DNA of 27,124 nt from a virus: the IMG/VR virus record IMGVR_UViG_3300038619_000085, positions 1 to 27,124 of that record. One strand, written 5' to 3'. The position numbers and the translations under genes were made by a program. Positions 10,380 to 27,124 of this stretch are shown here, one piece after another. The notes beneath the pieces were generated by a model that had not been told where the DNA came from, did not search any database, and saw only the letters and a list, made by a program, of their open reading frames with translations. Position 1 is the first letter of the stretch. Each line of letters opens with the position of its first letter.

Positions 10380-11921
10380 CTAGAACACCGCCTCCGCCAA
10401 TTCCGCCGCCACCGGACGCCCGCCCACCGCGCCCCATTGCGCCACCGATTGGTAGCGCGCCGCCCCTTCCATCGCTCCGCACAGCAGCGCCGCTGCCCAA
10501 AACCAGTCCGCGTGGCCGCCCTTGTCCGTCCGCTGCGCGTCCAAGCGCACCGCCCCCGTCGGCCCCACGTACCGCTTCACCGCCTGGAACTCCCGCCGCA
10601 GTTGCACCGATTCCGGCAGCCAGATCATACGATCCTCGCACCGCCGCTTCAGTATCCCCGCCAACCGTTCCTTCACCCCAACCTTCATCGGTTTGTTTTC
10701 CGCGTCCAGCAACCCCGATTCGACCGATGTGGAGAAGTTTACCGGCTCCACGCAATCGAACCGCCGCCGCTTGCCGCTCGCGTCCGTGTACCCCGTGCTT
10801 AACTCTTCCCCGAGCTGCATCCCCAGCCCCGTCGCATCCATCGCGAAACGGCCGCCCGATTCCGTCACCACTTCCGCCACCTGCGCGCAAATCTCCCTCT
10901 GCTGCTCGAAGCGCATCTGCGATAGGATGATCACCCCGCAGATCACCAGCAACGGCCCCACCGGGTATCCCAGGATAATCAGCGATCCGTCCCTCTTCCG
11001 CGCCACGTCGTAGCCCGCGCTCAGGCCCGGCCGCGCCTGGCCGTCCCAATCCATCGTCGCCTCGCTCGATTCGCACTCCAGCACCAGCGATAACGGGATG
11101 TACTGCGATCCGTCCTCCATCGGCACGTTGCAGAAATCCTGCATCCATATGTCGTCGTCGGCGATCGCCCGCCGCATCTCTTCGAGATCCACTGGCGCGC
11201 CTTGCCGCACCGCCATTTCCGCGGATACCCAATATCCGTGCCATGCCTCGCGGATCACCGGCTGCGCTTCCGGCTCGGCCCCATCCGCCAGGCCCAGGAT
11301 CTTCGCCATCTCGCCGAACTTGTTCGTCGTGCCGTTCAAGGTGCTCGCCACGCGCATCTTGAACCCGCGGCTCACGCGCGTCATCGCCGCCGCCCACACT
11401 TCCTTCTGATTGCGCGATCGCCCGAATTCGTCGAGAAACAAATCGCCTGAATATCCGCGCGCCGTGTCCGGATTCGATGCCAGCGCCAGCAGCCGCTTTC
11501 CGTTCGGAAACACGAACCTCCGCTCCAACATGCTGGTGTCCGCGAAGTAGCCGTCCTCGAACGCCACGCTCCACGCCCGAACGTGCATCTTCACCTTTTC
11601 CACGACTTCGTTCGATTGCGGCTGCGATGCGCTCAATATGATTCCGAGCTGCGCGGACGCCGATCCCTCCTTCATTCGATCGAGCGCCATATCGAGCGAC
11701 CCGGTGAACGATTTCCCCGCGCTCTGCGATGCCCCCACCACGAACTTGAACCGGTACTCGTCCTCGATCCACTGCTTCTGCCAATCCAGCAGCTTCACCA
11801 CCGGCCCGTTCGCCCCCAACGCTTCCCGCAACGGCGCGGCCGCAGTGGCGCCGGCGATCCCAGTGGCGCCGGCGATCTTGTCGCCGGTGGCCTTTCCCCC
11901 CGCTCTGGCCCTTCCCGCCAC
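10380..11921 (-). CDS. Terminase large subunit, Mu gp28-like
   Basis: A 513-residue packaging ATPase/nuclease. Walker A is G-A-S-Q-S-A-G-K-S at about residues 63-71, and Walker B with catalytic Glu is L-F-L-D-E-F at 161-166. The nuclease domain shows A-G-Y-D-V-A-R-K-R-D-G-S, R-F-A-M-D-A-T-G-L-G and, near the end, D-K-G-G-H-A-D-W-F-W, consistent with an RNase H-like metal site. The start is a GTG at 11921 overlapping the upstream TAG (TAGTG), with AGAGGA seven bases before it; a longer N-terminal reading frame exists but overlaps the upstream gene. Residues about 11-26 are one full and one partial family A repeat in tandem. It pairs with the DUF3486 gene upstream. Confidence 0.9.
   Translation of the reverse strand: MAGRARAGGKATGDKIAGATGIAGATAAAPLREALGANGPVVKLLDWQKQWIEDEYRFKFVVGASQSAGKSFTGSLDMALDRMKEGSASAQLGIILSASQPQSNEVVEKVKMHVRAWSVAFEDGYFADTSMLERRFVFPNGKRLLALASNPDTARGYSGDLFLDEFGRSRNQKEVWAAAMTRVSRGFKMRVASTLNGTTNKFGEMAKILGLADGAEPEAQPVIREAWHGYWVSAEMAVRQGAPVDLEEMRRAIADDDIWMQDFCNVPMEDGSQYIPLSLVLECESSEATMDWDGQARPGLSAGYDVARKRDGSLIILGYPVGPLLVICGVIILSQMRFEQQREICAQVAEVVTESGGRFAMDATGLGMQLGEELSTGYTDASGKRRRFDCVEPVNFSTSVESGLLDAENKPMKVGVKERLAGILKRRCEDRMIWLPESVQLRREFQAVKRYVGPTGAVRLDAQRTDKGGHADWFWAAALLCGAMEGAARYQSVAQWGAVGGRPVAAELAEAVF
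11845..11859. repeat. Partial family A repeat next to A3
   Basis: GTGGCGCCGGCGATC, the left half of a family A element, ending three bases before the full copy A3. The pair encodes a doubled I-A-G-A-T in the terminase N-terminus, suggesting slippage or a nested insertion. Confidence 0.85.
11863..11891. repeat. Family A palindromic repeat, copy A3
   Basis: Stem CCGGCGA (11869-11875), loop TCTTG, stem TCGCCGG (11881-11887). It encodes A-T-G-D-K-I-A-G-A-T about ten residues after the GTG start of the large terminase. Confidence 0.94.
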
Positions 11922-18747: not shown

Positions 18748-18961
18748 TAGCGCGCCTCCCCCCTGTGGCGCCGGCGATCTTGTCGCCGGTGTTCTCCCGC
18801 AACTCCCGCAGCTTCACTTCGATCCGCGCGTCAAGCGCAAGAAGCAGCCGCGCCCCTGCTTCGCGCGTCCATTGCGATTCGCCCGGCCACATCATGGCCT
18901 GCGCCTGTTCCCGCCGCTCCGCCATCTCGCGCATCTCGTCGTATCGATTCATCGCCGCCAT
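18455..18961 (-). CDS. Small early protein, frame-shifted by repeat insertion and reading into gam
   Basis: The first 56 residues (M-A-A-M-N-R-Y-D-E-M-R-E-M-A to K-L-R-E-L-R-E) look like a normal helical protein. Then N-T-G-D-K-I-A-G-A-T from repeat A8 follows, and the frame continues out of register through the start of gam for about 97 codons of Gly/Arg/Ala-rich shadow sequence. A TAA that would form the usual TAATG junction with the gam start is out of frame now. It would be back in frame if a 29-bp (or 26-bp) element were removed. So the original protein was probably about 60-65 residues. AGGGGG five bases upstream supports the start at 18961. Confidence 0.65.
   Translation of the reverse strand: MAAMNRYDEMREMAERREQAQAMMWPGESQWTREAGARLLLALDARIEVKLRELRENTGDKIAGATGGRRANGATEERDGGGTGDGGGLRAGDGGVVGCDRPDRGIGSAARIASGAGIGRDRARDERCEGAQDRGGAGAAELLLCAPGGDRSQRREASAARGRSDWAA
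18765..18790. repeat. Family A palindromic repeat, copy A8
   Basis: Stem CCGGCGA (18771-18777), loop TCTTG, stem TCGCCGG (18783-18789). It lies 18 bases upstream of the gam start codon, at the former end of the preceding gene. It encodes T-G-D-K-I-A-G-A-T. Confidence 0.93.
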
Positions 18962-22042: not shown

Positions 22043-22198
22043 TTACTCCGTTGTGGGTTGCTGGCCCTGCACTTGTGCTTTGCTTCCGCAGTTGACTGCG
22101 GCCGCTGACCCGGTATCGAGGCGTTGACCCTGCAGATCGCAACGCGCATCACCTTCCAGTCCCAGCCCACGGACCCGCTCATCGTTGTGGTATGTCAT
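22043..22198 (-). CDS. 51-residue ORF coupled to the transposase
   Basis: The ATG overlaps the transposase stop (ATGA at 22195-22198) and the frame runs M-T-Y-H-N-D-E-R-V-R to a TAA at 22043. The peptide is polar, with two cysteines. No ribosome site of its own is clear, so translation would depend on termination of the transposase. It may be real or a fortuitous frame in a 229-bp gap. Confidence 0.4.
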   Translation of the reverse strand: MTYHNDERVRGLGLEGDARCDLQGQRLDTGSAAAVNCGSKAQVQGQQPTTE

Positions 22199-24360
22199 GA
22201 TTTCCCAAAAAACTGAAACTCTTCGTCCACTTGCGGCGCCGCCGCTTCGGTTGCGTTCACCGCATCCGCCGGCGCCCGAAAATCGAAACTCTTCTCTTTC
22301 CGATCCGCCGCCGCGGCCGCTTCCACGCCCGCCGGCAGCTCCACCGGAATCTCCACCCGCGCCGCACCTGGTCTGTCCGGCAGCACGTCCGCCCTCCGGT
22401 TCAATCGCTCTTCGAGCGAGATCCCCGGTGCCGCCGCCACCGCCGCCAGAATCGCTTTCCGCACTTCGCGCCGCGCCGCGCGCCGCGCCCGCTCGTCTTC
22501 CACGAACCCCTGCTCGCCCATATGCCGCAGTTGCACGCAATGCACGAGCCCAAAGAATCGGTCCTCGTAGTACACCGCGCCCTCGCCCATATCGAGCGGA
22601 TCGTACGCGTAGTCCACCACTTTCCCGTTCAGCAGATTCAGCCGCTGCGTCCCGTCCGACATGCGATAGAAATAAGGCTGCCCATCGTGCGTTGTCCGCA
22701 GCTCACCGTGTTGCACCGTGATCTGTTTCCGCTTCGCAAAGCACATGTGCAGCACGTCCGCCGGCACGCTGCGCCGCTCCACCCGCCCTATCTGGTCTTC
22801 CCACGCTTCGTTCGGGCACTTCCAGCCGTGGCCGAGCGGAGTCACTTTGCGCATCCCCTCGCCTTCCACCGGCCGCTCGTTTAGATCCCTCAGCACCGCG
22901 TCGTACAGCCGTCCAATCTCCTCGATCGTCCGGAATGGCGTCGTCTCCGCCGTCCCCGCCGCAAACGCTTCATGCCGCTTCACCAGCTCCGGATAATGCT
23001 CCGGACGCGCGCCCGGCTTATGTCCGCACCACTCCGGCAGCGTTCGGTCGACGTTCGACACGCGATTGAAATTCGCCTCGATCAGCTTCGCTCGCGCGTT
23101 ATAGGGGATCGCGTGCCGCACCCGTATTCCCAGCGTCCCTAGCACCCCGCACCAGGTCGGATCGAGATCCGCGATCCGCTCCGCCTGGCGCGCCTTCCGC
23201 GCCTTCCCCTCGAACCATTCGCAGCGAAAATCCTTGCCGTTGTCCCAGTACAGTTCCTTCGGCAGTCCGAAATTCAAAAACACTTTCTTCAGCACCACCG
23301 CGATCGAGTCGCTTGATGGCGTTTCCACAATCGCCCAGCCGAGCCATTTCCGCGTGCGCATGTCGATCGCGGCCGTCAGCCACGGCCGCGCCAGTTTCCA
23401 GCCCGCGCGCCCGTCCCGCACCATACAGAACAAGTCCAGTACGCGGTGATCCATCACCACGTACTCCATCGGCTCCAGGCTCAGGTAATCCCTGTGTGAG
23501 AGGATCTCTTGCGAGTCCCTGTAGGCGTCTTCGCCCTCGCGCCCCAGCGTTCGGATCATCTCCGGTATCCGCTGGAACCATGTGCAGAAAGTCCTGTAGG
23601 CCACTGCCGGCAATTGCGCTGCTGGCGCCAACCGCCCTTCCGTATCGATGTATTCCGCGTACTTGTCGCGCTCGAATTCGCCCATCGGCCGCGTGACGTG
23701 CGCGTCCCGCCACACACGCTCTTCCTCGTACACGCGCCACATGTCCGCCACGCGCAGAATGCCGTACACGCCCTTCTGTGGCAGTGAGAGCTTCAACAGC
23801 AGTGCCCGCGCCGACGCCGTCATCACCTTCGACCCGCCCTTGTCCGCGCGGTCCTTGCGCACCAGGCCCGGCAGCCCGCCCATCCGCCAGCGCTCGATCC
23901 AGCGCCGTATCGTGCGCACCGATACCTTGTGTTTCTCGGCCGCAGTCGCCTGGCCAGCCAGAAACGCGTAGAGCGCGCTCTGCCGCGGATATTGCGCGTG
24001 CAGCGCCGGGTACTTTTCCGCGTCCACCACCGGCGCGATCGCGTCGTATCGCCGCTCCGCTTTCGCCCGGTCTTTCGCGCTCAGGTTCGGCCCCTCCGGC
24101 GCAGTCAGCGCTAGCGTCAATTGCCCCGCGTCCACGGCCGCCGGAACCAGCTCGACCACTTTCCTATGGAGCGTCGCCGCCCACCGCCGCTGCGCTTCCG
24201 CCGGCAGCAGCGCCACATCGTATACCGGCGCCGGCTTCCCGTTGCGCGCGATCTCGCCTTCCACCGGCTGTAGTTCGTCCGCGCGTCGCCGGACCGATCG
24301 GCGCGATCGCTCCATTAGCTCGGCAGCCTGCTCTTGCGTCAGCTTCGCGGTGTTCGGCAT
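22195..24360 (-). CDS. MuA-like DDE transposase
   Basis: A 721-residue transposase that integrates and replicates the phage by transposition. The N-terminus has DNA-binding winged-helix regions (residues 1-60 and about 140-180, V-R-T-I-R-R-W-I-E-R-W). The RNase H-like core has D304 in V-M-D-H-R, D373 in Y-W-D-N-G-K-D-F and E428 in K-L-I-E-A-N-F-N-R. The spacings 69 and 55 are close to those of Mu A (67 and 56). The C-terminal part is the Mu-type beta barrel and a charged tail. The start at 24360 overlaps the previous stop (TGATG), with GGGAG eight bases upstream; an upstream ATG at 24375 lies inside the previous gene. Confidence 0.93.
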   Translation of the reverse strand: MPNTAKLTQEQAAELMERSRRSVRRRADELQPVEGEIARNGKPAPVYDVALLPAEAQRRWAATLHRKVVELVPAAVDAGQLTLALTAPEGPNLSAKDRAKAERRYDAIAPVVDAEKYPALHAQYPRQSALYAFLAGQATAAEKHKVSVRTIRRWIERWRMGGLPGLVRKDRADKGGSKVMTASARALLLKLSLPQKGVYGILRVADMWRVYEEERVWRDAHVTRPMGEFERDKYAEYIDTEGRLAPAAQLPAVAYRTFCTWFQRIPEMIRTLGREGEDAYRDSQEILSHRDYLSLEPMEYVVMDHRVLDLFCMVRDGRAGWKLARPWLTAAIDMRTRKWLGWAIVETPSSDSIAVVLKKVFLNFGLPKELYWDNGKDFRCEWFEGKARKARQAERIADLDPTWCGVLGTLGIRVRHAIPYNARAKLIEANFNRVSNVDRTLPEWCGHKPGARPEHYPELVKRHEAFAAGTAETTPFRTIEEIGRLYDAVLRDLNERPVEGEGMRKVTPLGHGWKCPNEAWEDQIGRVERRSVPADVLHMCFAKRKQITVQHGELRTTHDGQPYFYRMSDGTQRLNLLNGKVVDYAYDPLDMGEGAVYYEDRFFGLVHCVQLRHMGEQGFVEDERARRAARREVRKAILAAVAAAPGISLEERLNRRADVLPDRPGAARVEIPVELPAGVEAAAAADRKEKSFDFRAPADAVNATEAAAPQVDEEFQFFGKS

Positions 24361-24812
24361 CAGACTGTCTCCCATAGTTTTTCCGCGAGCTTCTTCCGCC
24401 GCAGCTCGGCCCTGCCCAGTTCCGCGAAGTCCCTGTCCTCCGCCGTCGCCAGAGACAACCGGGCCGGCCGGAACACCGCCTCCGCCAGCCGCGAGCTTTT
24501 CAGCACCATTACCCACGCCGCCAATAACTCCACCGGGAAGCGGTGCCCCGCTTTCGTCTCCGACATGTACGCGTCGATCATCGCCAGGCTGATCGGCCGC
24601 CCCATCATCCAACTGATCTCGATCGCGATCTCCGCGCGCGAAAGTCTCGATTCCTTCACGTCCGCCCGCAGAGCTTCGCGGATCGCCGCCTGCATGCCCG
24701 ATAACGCGCCATTTACCTCTCCCGGCGCCGCGGTGATATCCAATTTCGCCTCGCCTTCGGACGTGGCTTTCTGCCCCGCTTCTGGTTTACCTTTGGAATC
24801 GGAGGTGTTCAT
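24360..24812 (-). CDS. Early protein preceding the transposase
   Basis: A 150-residue protein starting at 24812, its ATG overlapping the stop of the Ner-like gene. The first 45 residues are low complexity and charged. The rest holds S-R-A-E-I-A-I-E-I-S-W-M-M-G-R-P-I-S-L-A-M-I-D-A-Y-M-S-E, then G-H-R-F-P-V-E-L-L-A-A-W-V-M-V-L, a helix-turn-helix-like segment common in proteins encoded before MuA in Mu-like phages of environmental bacteria. Probably a DNA-binding accessory of transposition or regulation. The family function is not known to me. Confidence 0.72.
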   Translation of the reverse strand: MNTSDSKGKPEAGQKATSEGEAKLDITAAPGEVNGALSGMQAAIREALRADVKESRLSRAEIAIEISWMMGRPISLAMIDAYMSETKAGHRFPVELLAAWVMVLKSSRLAEAVFRPARLSLATAEDRDFAELGRAELRRKKLAEKLWETV

Positions 24813-25057
24813 GCGGCTTTCTTTCGGAGTTCGAATCCAGGCGCCCGCAGCCGGCGTAACGCTCTTTCGACTCGCGCCGACCGCCGCCGGCCCCAGTACA
24901 CCTCCCGAACGAATTGCCGGGAGCAATGGCGATATCTGGACAGTTGTCTGGCAACCTGTGAGAACACACCAGGGTTAGCCAGCAACCAGGCCTTTTCGTA
25001 GGCCACCGGCTGCGTCACCAGCGCGGTATGATTGGCTAGTAGGTTGTCGAGTCGCAC
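24809..25057 (-). CDS. Ner-like small DNA-binding protein
   Basis: An 82-residue basic protein, first gene of the leftward operon. The C-terminal half, Q-F-V-R-E-V-Y-W-G-R-R-R-S-A-R-V-E-R-A-L-R-R-L, resembles the recognition-helix end of small phage HTH regulators. It takes the place of ner in Mu, which turns down early transcription. The start is a GTG at 25057 whose codon touches the triple CTTAAG palindrome. There is no room for a normal leader, so either translation starts leaderless or a later codon is used. The stop overlaps the next ATG (ATGA). Confidence 0.68.
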   Translation of the reverse strand: MRLDNLLANHTALVTQPVAYEKAWLLANPGVFSQVARQLSRYRHCSRQFVREVYWGRRRSARVERALRRLRAPGFELRKKAA

Positions 25058-25086
25058 TTAAGCTTAAGCTTAAGTCTTATTGCGAC
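25051..25086. promoter_or_regulatory. Divergent operator: triple CTTAAG palindrome
   Basis: CTTAAG repeated three times without spacing at 25057-25074, a perfect palindrome of 20 bp including flanking A and T (25056-25075). It is enclosed by GTCGCA (25051-25056) and its complement TGCGAC (25081-25086). It sits in the 49-bp gap between the divergent repressor and Ner-like genes, the position of the lysis-lysogeny operator in Mu-like phages. The repressor of the neighbouring gene is the obvious candidate binder. Confidence 0.75.
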
Positions 25087-25106
25087 GCGCAGGCAAGAAC
25101 TATCTC

Positions 25107-25520
25107 ATGGGGGACTTTGTCCGCACTCTCCGCGAGCGCCTCGGGCTAACGCAACAGCAATTCGCTGAGCGGTTCAAGATGTCCTATGGCGCCATCCAAG
25201 GGTATGAGAGTGGCCGCAGCCCTAGCCGCGCCCGAATCGAGACACTGAAGTCGATCGCCGTCGACACCGGCCATGCCGATCTTATCTCTATGTTGTCCGG
25301 GGAGTTACCGCCCACCCCGCCTCCCACGACACCGGCCGAAAAACAGCGATGGCTGAACATGCTCGCGGCCATACTGGACAGCGGGGATAAGGATGCCATC
25401 CCCGCCGTGCAGTCCAATTTGGTCACCTTTGATGCGCTGATTCAGGCCCGGAAAGAACTGGCGAAACGCCGTAAGGGGGTAACTCACACCCCGCAAAAAA
25501 GGTCCTCCACCCCCCCTTAA
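25107..25520 (+). CDS. XRE/Cro-CI family phage repressor
   Basis: A 137-residue protein and the first plus-strand gene. Residues 4-58 are a classic HTH_XRE: V-R-T-L-R-E-R-L-G-L-T-Q-Q-Q-F-A-E-R-F, then M-S-Y-G-A-I-Q-G-Y-E-S-G-R-S-P-S. A Pro-rich linker (L-P-P-T-P-P-P-T-T-P) leads to a helical C-terminal part that may oligomerise. It replaces Mu c as the immunity repressor and is divergent from the transposition operon. The ATG at 25107 is favoured over an in-frame TTG at 25080. The stop lies in a second CTTAAG-containing palindrome (CCCTTAAGGG at 25514-25523). Confidence 0.85.
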   Translation: MGDFVRTLRERLGLTQQQFAERFKMSYGAIQGYESGRSPSRARIETLKSIAVDTGHADLISMLSGELPPTPPPTTPAEKQRWLNMLAAILDSGDKDAIPAVQSNLVTFDALIQARKELAKRRKGVTHTPQKRSSTPP

Positions 25521-25523: not shown

Positions 25524-25561
25524 AACACGAACGTGCCGCGCTGAAGCGGTACTTTGTGAAA

Positions 25562-25804
25562 ATGCAGACTGGAATTCACATCATCAATCCCAGCTCTGAA
25601 CCGGCAATCTCCCAAATTGAAGTGGGAGCAATTATCGCTATGGCGAACCAGATTCGGATGCTGACAAAAACGTATGAACTCGCCTGCCAGGGGCTGCTCA
25701 CCAGGCTGCGCGACGGAGTAGTGGTCGATCCCGGCATGCACACCGCCGAGCTGGAGGAAGTGAACGAGGGGACGTCTCAAACTGTTCGCCTGATCCTGCA
25801 CTAA
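25562..25804 (+). CDS. Small accessory protein downstream of the repressor
   Basis: An 80-residue protein (ATG at 25562; an in-frame GTG at 25556 adds two residues) beginning M-Q-T-G-I-H-I-I-N-P-S-S-E-P. It has a helical centre (A-I-I-A-M-A-N-Q-I-R-M-L-T-K-T-Y-E-L-A) and an acidic end. It lies 41 bp after the repressor stop in the same direction and may share its transcript. Not recognised. It could belong to the immunity region or be the first cargo gene. Confidence 0.58.
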   Translation: MQTGIHIINPSSEPAISQIEVGAIIAMANQIRMLTKTYELACQGLLTRLRDGVVVDPGMHTAELEEVNEGTSQTVRLILH

Positions 25805-25863
25805 TTTCCTGTTTCTACTCCCAAACAAATAAGAGGATCGGCCCACGCGCCGCACTATCAATT

Positions 25864-26331
25864 GTGCGACTCGCGACTTCCATCCTTATATATGCTCTTC
25901 TCCCCGGTGGCTGGTCCAAGGCCAAGTGGTATATGACCGAGGCCCAGATCGCCGACGCCTTCGGCGCCGACCACATCGTGCGTGTTCCGATGGCCGATCA
26001 CTCGACCGCGCCTGGCGTCGATATCGACCTCGATGGCAAGCCGTGGCGCGCCGTCTTCAACCTCAAGGACGGTGGACTATCTAATGTCGGCCTCGCCCCG
26101 CGCGATGCCCAGGATCGCAACGGCCGCGTCTTCCAGTCGCTGGTCGACCTGCTCGTCCAGAAGTACGGCCGCCCCTGGAAATCCGAGCGAGCCCAGGAGT
26201 TCCGCACCATCGAATATCAGTGGTCCTTCCCTTCGACCGTCATCAGTCTTTCACTCACCACCGTGCCCGGCGTTTCCGGTGTCGCGATCCTCGATCTCAA
26301 CTACCACCGCGCCGCCGCCGACCCTCTCTAG
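25864..26331 (+). CDS. Accessory protein of unknown function, possibly exported
   Basis: A 155-residue protein from a GTG at 25864; an ATG at 25933 gives a 132-residue form. Neither has a clear ribosome site. With the longer start the N-terminus is moderately hydrophobic (S-I-L-I-Y-A-L-L-P-G-G). The rest follows a pattern seen in small secreted bacterial proteins: M-T-E-A-Q-I-A-D-A-F-G-A, beta strands around D-G-K-P-W-R-A-V-F-N-L-K-D-G-G-L, L-L-V-Q-K-Y-G-R-P-W, and Y-Q-W-S-F-P-S-T-V-I-S-L-S-L-T. Codon use is as GC-rich as the phage. Could be lysogenic conversion cargo or host DNA. Confidence 0.6.
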   Translation: MRLATSILIYALLPGGWSKAKWYMTEAQIADAFGADHIVRVPMADHSTAPGVDIDLDGKPWRAVFNLKDGGLSNVGLAPRDAQDRNGRVFQSLVDLLVQKYGRPWKSERAQEFRTIEYQWSFPSTVISLSLTTVPGVSGVAILDLNYHRAAADPL

Positions 26332-26367
26332 TGTCTTGCGCGTTTCCGCTTGAGCGACAGTTTTCTC

Positions 26368-26396
26368 TTGACATAGCGGCCCCATTGAAGTATAAT
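26368..26396 (+). promoter_or_regulatory. Consensus sigma-70 promoter
   Basis: TTGACA at 26368-26373, a 17-bp spacer, and TATAAT at 26391-26396: both boxes match the consensus at all twelve positions with optimal spacing. It drives the 86-residue gene starting at 26433. I see no other site of this quality in the window. Confidence 0.88.
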
Positions 26397-26403
26397 TAAG
26401 GTA

Positions 26404-26420
26404 GCTCGAATCCATCGAGC
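26404..26420 (+). promoter_or_regulatory. Hairpin at the mRNA 5' end
   Basis: GCTCGA (26404-26409), loop ATCCA, TCGAGC (26415-26420), beginning about eight bases after the -10 box, so at or next to +1, and followed directly by the GGGAG ribosome site. Either a transcript-stabilising 5' stem or a repressor operator. Confidence 0.55.
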
Positions 26421-26432
26421 GGGAGAAAAAAG

Positions 26433-26693
26433 ATGAAACACCAATACGGTCACGTGGTCAAGATCAGCAGCAGGCCGGCGGGAACGACCATGACATTGTG
26501 GACTTGTGGCGTGCATATTCTGGACGGCAAACTCTACGCCAGCAACCCAATCTGCCACATCGGGAACAACAGCTCGCCCTGTATGCACCGGACGCGCGAC
26601 GCAGCTAGATACTGCCAAAATCGCGCAGCCTATTTGCGCGGCGGCGAGGCAGTCCAAGCGCCGGACCTGCGGGGAACCATCGTGGCCGATTGA
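26433..26693 (+). CDS. Small cysteine-containing protein under a strong promoter
   Basis: An 86-residue protein with a good ribosome site (GGGAG, seven bases before ATG) behind a perfect promoter. It is beta-prone at the start (Y-G-H-V-V-K-I-S-S-R), has four cysteines (residues 25, 41, 50, 61), and ends in an acidic tail. It is not recognised as any family. Constitutive strong expression beside the repressor side of a Mu-like phage is what one expects of a lysogen-expressed accessory such as an exclusion or defence factor, but no direct evidence exists. Confidence 0.65.
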   Translation: MKHQYGHVVKISSRPAGTTMTLWTCGVHILDGKLYASNPICHIGNNSSPCMHRTRDAARYCQNRAAYLRGGEAVQAPDLRGTIVAD

Positions 26694-26797
26694 TCTTCGC
26701 CGGTGCCTCGCCGCATCGGCCTCCGCATCGGCGGAGCGCTGCCAGGCTGGATACCTGGCCATCGCCGCGGGCGTCACGCGCGGCTCGAAAGGACACT
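26694..26797 (+). other. Spacer with hairpins after the 86-residue gene
   Basis: Contains CTCCGC-ATCG-GCGGAG (26721-26736) and GCCAGG, loop of seven, CCTGGC (26741-26759). Neither has a following T-run, so termination is uncertain. The last bases carry GAAAGGA, the ribosome site of the next gene. Confidence 0.5.
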
Positions 26798-27124
26798 ATG
26801 CGCAGCTCACGACCCATCCCGCTTCCCCCTGGCACCATCGACGAGACCGGCCACACCTACGGATGCCTCACCGTCCGCGAATATGCCGGCGTTGATTCTG
26901 GCGGGGGCGCTCAGTGGGTCTGTGAGTGCGCCTGCTCGGATGCACAGTGCCGCGGCATAGTCCTTGCCCGTGGCGCGAAGCTCCGATCCGGCCGCGTCGT
27001 CTCTTGTGGTCGCCTCCGCGCAAATTCCGGCATCCGCCAAGCCGCACGGCTCCAGACGCCAGCCAAACGCCGCCGCCAAATCGCCAGCCTTGGCGGCCAT
27101 GCGAAAAAGGCCGCCGAGCCTCCC
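26798..27124 (+). CDS. Zinc-ribbon phage protein, cut by the window end
   Basis: An open frame of at least 109 codons with GAAAGGA five bases before the ATG at 26798. It has the pattern of a zinc-ribbon domain common at the N-terminus of phage HNH/AP2-type and related proteins: T-Y-G-C-L-T-V-R-E-Y, then W-V-C-E-C-A-C-S, V-L-A-R-G-A-K-L-R-S-G and V-V-S-C-G-R-L-R. The usual ending S-C-G-C is S-C-G-R here, so the fourth ligand is altered or supplied by another cysteine. The rest is basic (A-K-R-R-R-Q-I). The C-terminus and any nuclease domain lie outside the window. Confidence 0.7.
   Translation, partial: MRSSRPIPLPPGTIDETGHTYGCLTVREYAGVDSGGGAQWVCECACSDAQCRGIVLARGAKLRSGRVVSCGRLRANSGIRQAARLQTPAKRRRQIASLGGHAKKAAEPP

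Follow-up and report, generated by a model that had tools for sequence, protein, structure and literature searches.

Accessory ("moron") genes of temperate phages, as defined in an excerpt of PMC4378225 and treated also in part of PMC7067206, are marked by a promoter of their own, a terminator after the gene, an insertion between adjacent phage genes, a composition unlike that of their neighbours and expression in the lysogen. The accessory ORFs of the D3112 group are mostly 34-100 codons long and lie mainly in the left arm, according to the excerpt of PMC4378225, while in KS10 the side of the repressor that faces away from the transposase holds many genes (PMC2628397, excerpt), so that transposable phages in general may have a longer arm. 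Transcriptomic work on Salmonella prophages shows that high expression can mark accessory loci beside the repressor or with a promoter to themselves; rexAB of lambda and bstA of BTP1 lie downstream of, and on the same strand as, the repressor gene (PMC7067206, excerpt). The ORF described here resembles rexAB and bstA in position and orientation but has a separate strong promoter and no known sequence relation to either locus.

The window, by which we mean the whole stretch of DNA that was analysed (IMG/VR record IMGVR_UViG_3300038619_000085, positions 1 to 27,124; 27,124 bases), carries an exact consensus sigma-70 promoter in front of an 86-codon orphan ORF [Table 1]. The observation is sound and its most likely reading is an ordinary one: we tentatively interpret the site, with a little less than an even chance of being right, as a strong and probably constitutive promoter that serves a small orphan accessory gene in the repressor-side arm of a transposable Mu-like phage. 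The ORF may be such a phage gene, may span a phage-host junction or may belong to flanking DNA. Should it be a phage gene, the many small repressor-adjacent accessory genes would gain one more orphan, one whose strong expression is signalled with unusual clarity, which makes it easy to test.

Table 1. Positions of the features discussed in the text, numbered from the first base of the window.
Feature	Position	Strand	Remarks
Mu-type transposase A	22195..24612	-	PHROG 310, E 6.1e-75
Palindrome ACTTAAGCTT/AAGCTTAAGT (ACTTAAGCTTAAGCTTAAGT)	25056..25075	.	Candidate c operator; perfect, CTTAAG; between Ner-like gene and c
HTH repressor (c)	25080..25520	+	Pfam HTH_31, E 3.2e-9; PHROG 8
p25864	25864..26331	+	Conserved repressor-side accessory gene; signal-peptide-like N-terminus; last phage gene in two relatives
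Gap after p25864	26332..26373	+	Candidate edge of phage left terminal region; overlaps -35 box; three TGTC/GACA copies
Consensus sigma-70 promoter	26368..26396	+	TTGACA, 17-nt spacer, TATAAT; exact match
Inverted repeat GCTCGA-ATCCA-TCGAGC (17 bp, 6-5-6)	26404..26420	+	As RNA, 6-bp stem at predicted transcript 5' end; as DNA, possible operator
Shine-Dalgarno-like GGGAGA and A-rich spacer	26421..26432	+	Read from sequence; GGGAGA 7 nt before ATG
ORF P0001	26433..26693	+	ATG, 86 codons; open reading frame; no relatives found
P0002	26798..27124	+	Cut by contig end; at least 109 aa; resembles N-terminal part of phage HNH proteins

Genomic setting of the promoter

The window encodes an endolysin, a portal protein, a terminase, Gam, B, A, a Ner-like protein and an HTH repressor, and therefore is a contig of a transposable Mu-like phage. 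The Mu order is present, with DDE transposase A, B ATPase, Gam, a Ner-like protein and the c repressor (PHROG 310, 296 and 491; HTH repressor), the Ner-like assignment being made from position and a weak HTH match. The repressor and the genes to its right are all on the plus strand and head toward the expected Mu-like left end, in the order 82-aa ORF, p25864, promoter, 86-aa ORF and P0002, which runs off the contig. The original prediction had placed the site at the repressor side of the phage, and this part of it stood, in that the contig is Mu-like, the site lies on the c side and p25864 occupies the same slot in two relatives; that the ORF itself is phage DNA found no support, the relatives suggesting a phage end near 26.3-26.7 kb and the ORF being absent from all 12 of them.

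These relatives are 12 distinct records obtained from transposase searches. Two of them, L003 (4-465) and L005 (4-555), encode homologues of p25864 that are 39% and 35% identical to it and of unknown family. Both records stop at the stop codon of this homologue, which looks like trimming at a gene boundary. The predicted fold of p25864 (mean pLDDT 75) had no match in the PDB at E <= 0.001, and its top matches in BFVD were all uncharacterised phage proteins (best E 4.8e-4).

On the other side of the ORF, a longer frame of P0002 (26690-27124) matches PHROG 374 with an E-value of 2.5e-11, and P0002 matches 11 phage records at E <= 0.01 and also L011. The part shared with phage HNH proteins is presumably of the AP2 type. 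This likeness favours mobile DNA as the source of the region; P0002 is absent from the 12 related records.

Promoter and leader

The -35 box (26368-26373) and the -10 box (26391-26396) both match the consensus exactly and are separated by 17 nt. The original prediction had called this promoter perfect and rare in the window, and on both counts it was right: an exact TTGACA-N15-19-TATAAT occurs only once in the 27,124 bases and in none of 100 dinucleotide shuffles of them, and about 0.0005 occurrences per window are expected from base composition. The match is far beyond chance. Searched whole, none of the 12 related phage records contains TTGACA and TATAAT at a spacing of 16-18. The promoter is placed to serve the 86-codon ORF, whose Shine-Dalgarno sequence lies at a suitable distance from the ATG, and the distance to the -10 box puts the probable start of the transcript near 26403.

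In the reading that we favour, RNA polymerase with the housekeeping sigma factor would initiate near this position without an activator, and transcription would run away from the repressor, with or just ahead of the HNH/AP2-like ORF. Lysogens would thus produce the 86-residue protein while lytic functions are shut off. The phage origin of the DNA, an active and unrepressed promoter, a stabilising effect of the stem and production of the protein are all inferences from the sequence. The palindrome between the Ner-like gene and c is likely to be an operator, and since inspection of the 26368 promoter revealed no copy of it there, expression from this promoter in a lysogen is plausible.

The original prediction also had the transcript start with a 6-bp stem, and the stem is indeed perfect and located at the predicted transcript start, beginning approximately 7-8 nt past the -10 box (predicted +1 or +2). 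It would be expected to slow decay from the 5' end and leave the Shine-Dalgarno sequence free. The 5' stem-loops that stabilise the ompA and papA mRNAs are comparable in this respect (PMC3997798, excerpt), with the differences that the leader stem has only 6 bp, that its start is a predicted one and that, as the minimum free energy structure of the 36-nt leader (-8.7 kcal/mol), it is equalled by 7 of 200 shuffles (3.5%). Given this share of shuffles, and with 86 inverted repeats of perfect 6-bp arms across the window, the stem alone is not significant and is ordinary. The 17-base hairpin sequence has 13 exact matches in viral contigs; these were judged to be due to chance because their flanks, where inspected, show no such promoter, and the hairpin was accordingly rejected as a conserved element.

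The transcription start is a usual position for an operator, and a perfect 6-5-6 inverted repeat lies exactly where transcription is expected to begin. The repeat, at +2 to +18, could thus be bound by a repressor that holds off the strong promoter until a signal arrives, making the gene a regulated rather than a constitutive one. We consider this very unlikely: a repeat of such size is expected about 0.06 times per 36 nt, its copies in viral contigs show no such promoter in the flanks inspected, the window holds no second perfect copy and no match with up to three mismatches overlaps the c/Ner operator region at 25056-25075.

The orphan reading frame

Whether the promoter drives a genuine gene is a separate matter. 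An 86-codon open frame is not remarkable at this base composition, the chance for a given frame being approximately 0.17. The frame is the best of the six for both codon score and amino-acid composition score, but weakly so, scores like its own being reached by 11% of 322 out-of-frame open stretches while 5% of 196 real stretches score equally low. It also ranks first of the six for codons in 26433-26495 and in 26496-26690 taken separately; the codon score is poor evidence here, because it does not recognise the real gene p25864 or P0002. The GC content of the ORF is 0.59 versus 0.646 for the window, and under a third-order model the ORF falls within the phage's own spread. Composition does not clearly set the stretch apart, 7 of 35 phage blocks being less typical.

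That the product has no recognised family, as originally proposed, is borne out by the absence of any match in Pfam, PHROGs, NCBIfam and PADLOC. There was no tblastn match among phages and plasmids, and none of the 12 related records contains the ORF, which the same search recovers in its own record. Peptide seeds gave three pattern matches in viral contigs, none a relative of the ORF, and 77 in genome contigs, of which one (L010) was reported. The latter was dismissed as a spurious homologue, its frame having a stop codon and the likeness being centred on the seed GEAVQAPD. A degenerate W-x-C-G-x-H ... YC-xx-RA pattern picked out two stretches in viral contigs, neither related to the ORF. Searches with peptide seeds detect close relatives only, and distant relatives of the ORF may exist. 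The best match among PDB sequences had an E-value of 0.2 and is not credible, and the single-sequence fold of the product (mean pLDDT 50) was too poor for a fold search. With four cysteines, five histidines and a weak beta-plus-helix prediction, the product might, at a guess, be a small metal-binding protein.

The proposal that the gene serves immunity or defence received no support from these searches, in which no homologues and no reliable fold emerged and in which PADLOC-DB returned no family for the 86-aa ORF, p25864, the 25556 ORF or P0002; a role of the product in defence against phages is unsupported. A check that had been suggested, for homologues at this position in other Mu-like prophages, yielded none in the 12 related records. 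Homologues confined to unrelated contexts were to count against the prediction; none of these turned up either, as no homologues were found at all.

Like morons, the ORF is a single short ORF with its own promoter, lies on the repressor side, is absent from relatives and has no known function. The exact consensus directly upstream of it supplies the promoter, of predicted activity. No intrinsic terminator-like site is found in 26368-27124, a search to which Rho-dependent ends are invisible, and in this the ORF differs from morons; its place inside the phage and its expression in lysogens are putative. As no terminator was found between the two, P0002 is perhaps carried on the same message as the 86-aa ORF. 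With regard to insertion between adjacent genes, the ORF is absent from 12 of 12 relatives, yet no relative shows a phage gene beyond the slot, which leaves the far flank of the ORF with nothing to be compared to.

Position of the phage end

The repressor-side arm is visible to its apparent end in four relatives (L007, L008, L009 and L023). L008 runs on into a host gene, which we take to be yfiH-like, and the other three stop within about 50 bases of a shared end motif. Alignment of the end regions revealed a start common to all four, TGGC followed by a G-rich stretch, and placed the apparent end some 300-340 bp beyond the last repressor-side gene. These last genes, on the minus strand, lie at 370-621 in L007, 371-667 in L009, 1685-1885 and 1900-2394 in L008, and 391-1245 in L023. 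As we read them, they encode small proteins of membrane or secreted appearance, not the same ones in each phage. Next to the left end, these four relatives have a variable slot for envelope genes; accessory genes are usual at this position, since p25864 homologues are found in two relatives and envelope-type genes in four more.

Between the last gene and the apparent end, the four records contain repeated sites of 11-18 bp (ATCCAAGCGACA, AATCCAACGGACAT) at 181-326 (L007), 184-345 (L009), 158-330 (L023) and 1534-1613 (L008). They start approximately 110-150 bp inside the apparent left end; the outermost copy has one orientation, and the two or more copies inward of it have the opposite one. They are likely to be transposase sites whose sequence differs among phages. 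In the D3112 group, for comparison, left sites occur at 10, 93 and 124 bp, the terminal bases being 5'-TGT (PMC4378225, excerpt). In L007, L009 and L023 no other repeat stretch of the locus ranks above the terminal array; in L008 the array is weak and is missed by the same measure.

Transferred to the window, the relatives suggest a phage end near 26.3-26.7 kb, and their spacing would put it at about 26.63-26.67 kb, inside the ORF. The phage could accordingly end within the ORF region (about 26.48-26.67 kb), with the promoter sitting in a non-coding left terminal region and firing outward into host DNA and the ORF being a chance or fused frame across the junction. We rate this as rather unlikely, though it has several points in its favour: p25864, which ends at 26331, is an envelope-type gene of the kind that precedes the 300-340 bp of terminal sequence with repeated sites in the four relatives; TGTC/GACA copies follow directly on its stop codon, one of them, TGTCGCT on the minus strand, being like the terminal sites of L007; the L007 site, a choice made after seeing the data, has six matches with up to three mismatches in 26300-27124 versus 1.5 expected; and an open frame of this length is not rare. 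Against it, the G-rich inward terminal strand of the relatives has no counterpart in the window in the end-region alignment, the ORF frame scores best for codons both before and after 26495 and, unlike in L007, L009 and L023, there is no array of repeats of 10 bp or longer in 26325-26644. By the array measure, no terminal array is seen in 25525-26644, and values up to 27124 are at or below the window's 95th percentile. Terminal transposase sites with a 5'-TGT end were not found in 25525-26644 either, and only weak candidates occur up to 27124. A phage end beyond the contig would leave no array in the window; the lack of one is also compatible with an end here, as the weak array of L008 escapes the same measure. 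Shared words between repressor-side and far ends of three records yielded nothing useful, these records seemingly being cut before the far end.

Were the promoter to lie in the left terminal region and point outward, each new insertion would switch on the host gene or frame beyond it, making the phage a mobile promoter that acts while its own lytic genes are silent. We hold this to be distinctly improbable; if true, random phage insertion would activate neighbouring host genes, a notable form of lysogenic conversion.

The phage may also end just past p25864, in which case the promoter, the 86-aa ORF and P0002 would be flanking host chromosome or another mobile element. In favour of this view, the L003 and L005 records go no further than the stop codon of their p25864 homologue, and relatives lack the ORF. 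Mu-like ends begin with 5'-TGT (PMC4378225, excerpt) and GACA ends exactly at 26373; in a variant of this view TTGACA is itself the phage terminus (5'-TGTCAA inward) and only the -10 box is flanking, giving a hybrid junction promoter. Outward hybrid promoters of insertion sequences have been published (excerpts of PMC9330008 and others), and a TTGACA at or near a transposing end with its -10 box outside would look alike, with the difference that the phage end is here only a candidate position. Flanking DNA is nonetheless an unlikely explanation in our view: the 36-42 bp past p25864 are too short for the multi-site end of the relatives and the D3112 group, random insertion rarely lands just before an intact promoter, P0002 resembles a phage protein and the composition is not clearly distinct. 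In particular, a host gene directly past p25864 is unlikely because a Mu-type end does not fit into the 36 bp that precede the -35 box.

The accessory-gene reading thus draws on the exact promoter, the frame scores of the ORF, the accessory slot of the relatives and the HNH-like next ORF; against it stand the absence of the ORF from all 12 relatives, the ends of L003 and L005, the 300-340 bp spacing and the lack of a terminator.

Two direct repeats were noted elsewhere in the window. An exact 127-base repeat is present at its start (1-127 and 173-299), and the contig probably breaks at this repeat because 127 is a usual assembler word length. An exact 27-base repeat, which holds a GGCGATCTTGTCGCC-type inverted repeat, occurs at 11863-11889 in the terminase gene and at 18765-18791 just before Gam.
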